Below are positions 21,660-24,022 of a stretch of 64,000 nt of DNA, one piece after another; positions within the stretch are counted from its first letter, which is position 1, and every line of letters starts with the position of its first letter. Source of the stretch: a bacterium (GTDB taxonomy: Bacteria; Arandabacterota; Arandabacteria; Arandabacterales; Arandabacteraceae); the NCBI GenBank assembly GCA_029933125.1, contig JAOZOU010000006.1, positions 1-64,000 of the forward strand, written 5' to 3'. A program made the translations under genes and the position numbers. The notes below the pieces were generated by a model, which was not told where the DNA came from, made no database searches, and worked only from the letters and a program-made list of their open reading frames with translations.

Positions 21660-21765
21660 AAATCTGCAAATCTCACAGAAATGCAGCCCTTCATTTAGCT
21701 GGTAACCCTGTAACTTGTTTATCCGTAATAAGTTGCGAAGTTTGCAGATTTTTAGCTCCGACCCC
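21646..21765. repeat. 120-bp palindromic dispersed element (copy B) between convergent genes
   Basis: Perfect 25-bp inverted repeats: the left arm at 21646-21670 begins GGGGTCGGAGCTAAAAATC, and the right arm at 21741-21765 is its exact complement. Total length is almost the same as copy A, with an unrelated core. Both flanking genes end inside it: the GH130 gene (+) stops at 21657-21659 and the thioredoxin gene (-) at 21752-21754, each reading Gly-Arg-Ser-stop. The arms could form a long hairpin between the convergent transcripts. Confidence 0.93.
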
Positions 21766-21985
21766 ACTTCTGGAGAAATTCGGTGAGGTGACGGTGTGAG
21801 GGGATGTTACCGCTAGCGACTACTTTACCATTTATGAGAAGGGCTGGCGTTGGTAGCGGACCATATTTGGAGATCTCACCCAAGTCCTGAACATGCTCGA
21901 AATCAGCCCGCAGGTCTATTTCAGCAAGAACTTCAAGCACCTGCTGTACGAGGCGATCGCAACGGGGGCATCCTGGCCCAAGCAC
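21752..21985 (-). CDS. Small redox-active disulfide protein (thioredoxin_3), unusual start
   Basis: About 77-82 residues; paralogue of the protein at 2250-2495. It has GPGCPRC as active site, VQDLGEISKYG and LPTPALLINGKVVASG. The frame before GTG 21985 reads ILEIKV, which matches the normal N-terminus of the family, but the only codon at the expected start is ATA (21998-22000), overlapping the TAG stop of the gene upstream. Either ATA is used by coupling, or the protein starts at GTG and lacks its first strand. The last residues GRS and the stop are encoded by repeat copy B. Confidence 0.75.
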   Translation of the reverse strand: MLGPGCPRCDRLVQQVLEVLAEIDLRADFEHVQDLGEISKYGPLPTPALLINGKVVASGNIPSHRHLTEFLQKWGRS

Positions 21986-22338: not shown

Positions 22339-22656
22339 TTACCTACTGGAGCGCCGCCTTTCCTTGATTACCTCCGCGCTACATTCAAGAAAACCGATTA
22401 CGCATGGAGTCACAAGGTGATAGATAACCTTGTTTCCCTGCCTTTGGTCTTCGACAATACCGCTGTTCCTTAGCACAGCAAGATGCTTTGATATCGTTGA
22501 CTGATCAACCTTTGTCAGTTCCACGAGCTCGCTCACATTGCAAGGCCCTTCGTAGAGCCTAACGATAATCTTGAGCCTGGTTTCATTTGCTATTGCTCTA
22601 AGAAGCCGAGCCTGCTGTTTGAAATCCAACACACGCTGCGCAGTCTTCTTACTCAA
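22339..22656 (-). CDS. Second ArsR/SmtB-family repressor
   Basis: A 105-residue winged-helix regulator close to the first ArsR protein: ARLLRAIANETRLKII, recognition helix QSTISKHLAVLR, and the same C-terminal pair TPCVIGFLEC (Cys85, Cys92), with an extra Cys39. It starts at TTG 22656, supported by GGAGG 7 nt upstream. It sits 42 bp downstream of the broken ACR3 pump gene on the same strand. Likely effector: arsenite or antimonite (from neighbours). It probably controls the divergent promoter region at about 23.7 kb. Confidence 0.86.
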   Translation of the reverse strand: MSKKTAQRVLDFKQQARLLRAIANETRLKIIVRLYEGPCNVSELVELTKVDQSTISKHLAVLRNSGIVEDQRQGNKVIYHLVTPCVIGFLECSAEVIKERRRSSR

Positions 22657-22698: not shown

Positions 22699-23640
22699 TC
22701 AAAGCCTCTGGGGAAACCAGTGGCTTGAGCGTTTGCATATTTCAACCAGTGTAAGCACTACAGGTACTTCAATCAGCACCCCAACAACAGTCGCTAGTGC
22801 CGCTCCTGAGTTTAACCCATAGAGCGTCGTCGCAGTTGCAATAGCAACTTCAAAGTGATTACTAGCCCCGATCATTGCGCTGGGAGCAGCATCAGCATAG
22901 TTAAGTCTTATTATTTTAGCAAGTCCATAGGTCATCCAGAATATTAGCATGGTTTGGATGAAAAGCGGTATGGCAATCCACGCAATTGTTGCTGGATTTG
23001 TTGTTATCATGTCCCCCTTCAGGGAGAAAAGGAGCACCAATGTGAAGAGCAAGGCTGTTATAGATATAGGAGTGAGGATGGGTAGGAAGTACTCTTTGAA
23101 CCATGCCGTGCCCTTATGCTTAATGATCCACTTGCGCGTAAAGTAACCACATATCAGAGGCAAAGCAACATAGACCGAGACTGAAAGAAGGATGGTTTGC
23201 CATGGGATTGGCATTGCGTTTACACCGAGAAGAAAACCACCAAGAGGAGCATGGAGAAAAAGCATTGTCAGAGAATTAATCGCCGCCATCACAAGAGTAT
23301 GGGCATCATTTCCCTTGGCTAAGTAGCTCCACATGAGAACCATTGCTGTGCAGGGGGCGATTTCTAGGAGGATGCAACCAGATATGTAACTTCTCCAGAG
23401 CTCAACTTCCTGTCCGGATTTTACAACTTCGGTTCCGGGCAGAAATCTCCTGAAGAGATCCCCAGAAAGAAGGTCGAAATTGCATATATGGTGAAAGGTT
23501 TGACAGCCCAATTGGCAAAAAGCGTGAGGGCGACAGGCTTTGGTGTCTTGCCAGCCCTTACGACTTCCGAGACGATACAAAGACCGACCCAAACCGTAAA
23601 GTACTTCTCAAACAGACTGAGCCTTGTTGTCCGCTGCTTT
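22699..23640 (-). pseudogene. ACR3-type arsenite efflux permease, broken
   Basis: The downstream part is a clear ACR3 permease: [52 protein letters not shown] and [20 protein letters not shown]. The upstream part is in another frame: [17 protein letters not shown] joined directly to [20 protein letters not shown]. Two defects show. A one-base loss in the G-run at 23460-23463 shifts the frame after TFFLG. Also, roughly 50 codons expected between LCIV and SEVV (membrane helices 2-3) are missing. No start codon is evident for the N-terminal piece. The frameshift alone might be a sequencing error; the deletion is not easily explained that way. Confidence 0.78.
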
Positions 23641-23772: not shown

Positions 23773-23791
23773 GATATCCGCGGAGGTGCTT

Positions 23792-24022
23792 ATGAAGAAG
23801 GTTACGGTCTATACGCAGTCGGGGTGAGTGTTTTGTATCGGTGTGAAGGAGTTTCTTTCGCAGAAGGGGATCGAATTCAGGGAGATTGATATTTCGAAGG
23901 ACGAGACCGCGATCAAGCGGCTAGAGGAGCTTGGCGTGATGACCACACCCGTGACGGTGATCGATGATGAGATTGTCATTGGGCTCGACAAGCCCAAGCT
24001 CGAAAAGCTGCTGAGCGGTTAG
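23792..24022 (+). CDS. Glutaredoxin-like protein with probable selenocysteine (UxxC)
   Basis: Read through TGA at 23825-23827, the frame encodes a complete 76-residue glutaredoxin-like protein: KKVTVYTQSG, then U12-V-F-C15, then VKEFLSQKGIEFREIDIS, cis-proline MTTPVTVIDDE and a DKPKLEKLL helix. GGAGGTG precedes ATG 23792. The TGA replaces exactly the N-terminal catalytic cysteine of the CxxC motif, the classic place for selenocysteine, and both sides are family-like in one frame. A hairpin starts 14 nt after the TGA. Starting downstream of the TGA would remove the first strand and active site. The alternative is a TGT/TGC-to-TGA nonsense mutation. Neighbouring ArsR/ACR3 genes suggest a metalloid or thiol-stress setting. 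Confidence 0.75.
23842..23862 (+). promoter_or_regulatory. SECIS-like hairpin downstream of the in-frame TGA
   Basis: Bases 23842-23849 pair with 23855-23862 to give eight consecutive pairs (including two G-U pairs) and a five-base loop AGTTT containing G-U. The loop begins 23 nt after the TGA, in the range reported for bacterial selenocysteine insertion elements. Found by eye; no folding energy was computed. Confidence 0.5.

Follow-up and report, generated by a model that had tools for sequence, protein, structure and literature searches.

A probable selenocysteine (UxxC) glutaredoxin with a covarying SECIS hairpin in a member of the Arandabacterota

A small gene on the plus strand of the DNA analysed here, a stretch of 64,000 nucleotides referred to below as the window, raises the question of whether the single TGA in its reading frame ends a damaged coding sequence or specifies selenocysteine (Sec) in a working redox protein. 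The gene spans positions 23792–24022, and when TGA is translated as Sec (U) it encodes 76 residues followed by a TAG stop at 24020–24022 (MKKVTVYTQSGUVFCIGVKEFLSQKGIEFREIDISKDETAIKRLEELGVMTTPVTVIDDEIVIGLDKPKLEKLLSG*). The TGA at 23825–23827 constitutes codon 12 and falls at the first catalytic position of a UxxC motif, here U-V-F-C, whose resolving cysteine at +3 is encoded by TGT at 23834–23836; the TG of this codon is invariant among 15 homologues carrying the TGA. The original prediction had placed one TGA at the first catalytic cysteine of a glutaredoxin with family-like sequence in frame on either side, and this description is borne out by the translation, by alignment with Cys homologues, in which the first Cys of the CxxC motif aligns with the TGA, and by a match to the Pfam Glutaredoxin family (PF00462) that extends over the full domain (profile positions 1–60 of 60, E 8.5e-16, 58.3 bits, the cut-off being 22.9). 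The upstream signals it had recognized are likewise in place, with a ribosome-binding site, GGAGG, readable on the plus strand at 23782–23786, five bases before the ATG. A phage search returned relatives that were all below 60% identity, and among the matches listed these were mostly annotated as NrdH-like or thioredoxin.

Incorporation of Sec at such a codon depends on a dedicated decoding machinery, and the search for selA, selB, selD and tRNA-Sec proposed in the original prediction was carried out in the assembly to which the window belongs (3.23 Mb, with 96.7% completeness and 0.25% contamination). All four components, selA, selB, selC and selD, were found, as expected of a host genome that decodes Sec. 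The tRNA-Sec scores 76.6 bits, over the Rfam cut-off, and ARAGORN reports it as a tRNA-SeC with the anticodon TCA (UCA); SelA (580.5 bits), SelB (398 bits) and two copies of SelD (397 and 362 bits) all exceed their cut-offs as well. The second SelD gene (G000:C171:209908-210825) lies directly before the tRNA-Sec and carries an in-frame TGA of its own in the context FSSCAG-U-ASK, so that this genome has at least two selenoprotein candidates, the glutaredoxin among them. The other SelD copy (G000:C76:20148-21071) sits inside an open frame of 741 amino acids and is possibly part of a fusion.

The neighbourhood of the gene had suggested a function, namely a selenol-based enzyme of arsenic metabolism encoded within an arsenic island. 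The ArsR regulator and broken arsenite pump named as neighbours were correctly identified. Upstream of the glutaredoxin gene, the minus strand encodes an ArsE/MTH895-family thioredoxin-like protein (21752–21985), an ArsR-family regulator (22339–22656) and an ACR3 arsenite pump in two pieces, one at 22735–23394 (profile positions 102–327) and one at 23460–23567 (profile positions 64–99). The two ACR3 pieces differ in frame, and together they leave the first 63 positions of the profile uncovered at the threshold used. No other ACR3 was found in the genome, whose only such pump is thus broken, through decay or through an assembly error, either of which could apply. A Sec glutaredoxin acting in the ars cluster, for example as reductant of an arsenate reductase, would be compatible with Sec insertion, and it draws some appeal from the presence of ArsR, the ArsE-like protein and the ACR3 remnants within 2.1 kb, as well as from reports that arsenate reductase and arsenite methyltransferase exist in Sec form elsewhere (PMC13188914). 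Against it, the glutaredoxin gene and the ars genes are divergent and occupy opposite strands, and the pump is broken in a genome with no second ACR3. The corresponding locus of a same-genus relative (L009; its counterpart contig in genome G001 is L099) reads glycosyltransferase, GH130, Sec glutaredoxin, DUF885 and MFS; 302 bp separate GH130 from the glutaredoxin gene, and the locus contains no ars genes. In an Anaerolineae genome (L010), the homologue follows genes for a heavy-metal P-type ATPase and an FTR1-type permease, and no ars genes lie beside it. Neither a shared operon nor a conserved neighbourhood was therefore found, and membership in an arsenic operon is rejected on the basis of strand and gene context. 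As ars genes are missing from the first locus and are not adjacent to the gene in the second, the glutaredoxin gene is independent of them; the ars genes would either have arrived later at the present locus or have been lost locally from the same-genus relative. An arsenic enzyme is accordingly a highly improbable reading of this gene, and we regard as equally improbable the variant in which the Sec glutaredoxin serves this lineage as a reductant for arsenic or another metal(loid) and was co-opted by an ars cluster that arrived later.

The broken ACR3 gene adjoining the glutaredoxin gene also invites the suspicion that the latter is itself a pseudogene, an ordinary Cys glutaredoxin disabled by a nonsense mutation or a sequencing error, and indeed a single-base change suffices to turn TGC or TGT into TGA. 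The distribution of the TGA among homologues speaks strongly against this explanation. The same codon is TGA in the same-genus relative (83% identical), in the Anaerolineae homologue (72%) and in a homologue from a Firmicutes MAG (L021; 36%), and it is kept in further Sec forms from other lineages, so that the alignment called for by the original prediction shows TGA in the closest relatives and Cys in the Cys homologues. In a search of 193 genomes, 19 matches contained an internal stop; each has exactly one, a TGA, and TAA and TAG are absent from all of them. This pattern argues against random decay and, together with the TGA shared by the nearest homologues, excludes a chance origin; the further disabling mutations in relatives that would have betrayed a pseudogene were not encountered. 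Comparison with the same-genus relative yields a dN of about 0.08 with synonymous sites near saturation, and this contrast recurs on each side of the TGA when considered separately, the upstream stretch being short at 11 codons. Judged from these substitution patterns, purifying selection is acting on both sides of the TGA.

The genomes that carry TGA forms offer further observations. Among the nine lying outside the window's own class, SelA exceeds the cut-off in seven. Counting against the Sec reading, one TGA-form genome, G038, gave no SelA match, though it has SelB. So does another, G080 (L080, L084, L104), which is 97% complete and encodes two TGA glutaredoxins with SECIS hairpins and a tRNA-Sec(UCA), yet yielded neither a SelA match nor a SelB above the cut-off. 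As for the window's own family, its genomes other than the same-genus one hold only relatives with at most 35% identity to the Sec glutaredoxin, as against 72% for the Anaerolineae homologue, a pattern of identities that may reflect horizontal transfer.

A further line of evidence comes from a predicted RNA signal just downstream of the TGA. Positions 23843–23861 of the plus strand can form a bacterial SECIS hairpin (GUGAAGG-AGUUU-CUUUCGC) that begins 18 nt downstream of the first TGA base, with a 7-bp stem (23843–23849 paired with 23855–23861) and the apical loop AGUUU (23850–23854). The published bSECIS model places a G within the first two positions of the loop, with G or U next, at a distance of 16–37 nt from UGA to loop (PMC13188914), and the small apical loop here, separated from the TGA by 22 nt, agrees with it. 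Folded singly, the window sequence gives an energy of -8.8 kcal/mol and surpasses its shuffles only moderately (z -1.9), and the weight of the case therefore rests on conservation. In an alignment of the 15 TGA homologues, gapless from the TGA, the stem lies at an equal distance and standard pairs occupy 104 of 105 cells (99%), nine of which have compensatory changes on both sides. Covariation in this alignment scores 0.378, compared with 0.210 +/- 0.031 for shuffles, of which none of 500 scored as high, and pairing falls to 37–64% when the partner strand is slid by 1–3 columns as a control. The 33 Cys homologues examined form a mean of 2.6 of the seven pairs (maximum 5), and the full 7-bp stem occurs in none of them. 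Random synonymous recoding of the window codons preserves all seven pairs in only 270 of 20,000 trials (~1.4%), indicating that the need to encode VKEFLSQK does not by itself account for the hairpin. An Rfam search gave no credible family at this site. When the hairpin model was run against the genome, this gene alone rose above noise (the second match had an E of 0.97), and this SECIS type thus led to no further selenoproteins here. Three more distant TGA matches (L092, L094, L096), in which the hairpin was not seen in the same register, weigh against the Sec reading; they are glutaredoxin-like frames with a TGA at or near the catalytic site and could represent either other SECIS shapes or decay.

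With the covarying hairpin and the complete Sec machinery of the genome added to the TGA conserved in independent genomes and the selection flanking it, a pseudogene or sequencing error is ruled out for practical purposes and retains only a very slight probability. The least probable proposal, and one we reject, has the UGA specifying some other amino acid, or a shortened product beginning at the GTG at 23828, from which a 64-aa ORF does extend. The short form would be without the catalytic residue and the first strand, the codons preceding the TGA are under selection too, the anticodon of the genome's tRNA-Sec is UCA, and the SECIS hairpin would serve no purpose. That the in-frame UGA is a genuine Sec codon is very probable, given that relatives share both it and the RNA signal and that the genome holds the whole Sec machinery. 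The selenoprotein glutaredoxin envisaged by the original prediction is in this respect upheld, and we put the probability that the gene encodes a small YruB/NrdH-like glutaredoxin with Sec as its first catalytic residue at roughly 0.96. By analogy with the family, the hairpin within the coding sequence would recruit SelB carrying Sec-tRNA(Sec)(UCA) to decode codon 12; the selenolate at this position would attack a target disulfide, and the cysteine of codon 15 would then resolve the mixed selenide-sulfide, a role modelled on cGrx1 (PMC7642778).

Automatic annotation in which UGA can only mean termination would cut this gene short or overlook it. Its recognition as a very probable selenoprotein gives a sparsely sampled lineage a Sec glutaredoxin whose SECIS is clean and covarying, and the 15-member hairpin alignment could be used to find other members. 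The gain is modest, as the family is already known. The best NCBIfam models, TIGR02196 GlrX_YruB (75.6 bits) and NF041212 Uxx-star (57.5 bits), both fall under their curated cut-offs (88.55 and 66, respectively), and Uxx-star proteins are not known to carry the second Cys, which the protein described here possesses. The best PDB sequence matches, 7c10 and 7c12, are named simply 'Glutaredoxin' and are probably cGrx1 of Clostridium (Alkaliphilus) oremlandii. In 2005, ten Sargasso Sea sequences were described as UxxC glutaredoxin selenoproteins (PMC1088965), Geobacter sulfurreducens has one (PMC1794560), and the family is listed in a 2026 review (PMC13188914); that the present gene joins this established bacterial family is well supported. 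It shares with the Sargasso Sea and G. sulfurreducens glutaredoxins the PF00462 domain, a Sec as the first residue of UxxC and a bacterial SECIS directly downstream, and differs from them in its U-V-F-C motif and its lineage. It is also akin to cGrx1 of C. oremlandii, a native Sec glutaredoxin with a U(or C)PxC motif and a resolving Cys that has been proposed to reduce the selenoprotein MsrA (PMC7642778), the motif here having V where cGrx1 has P.
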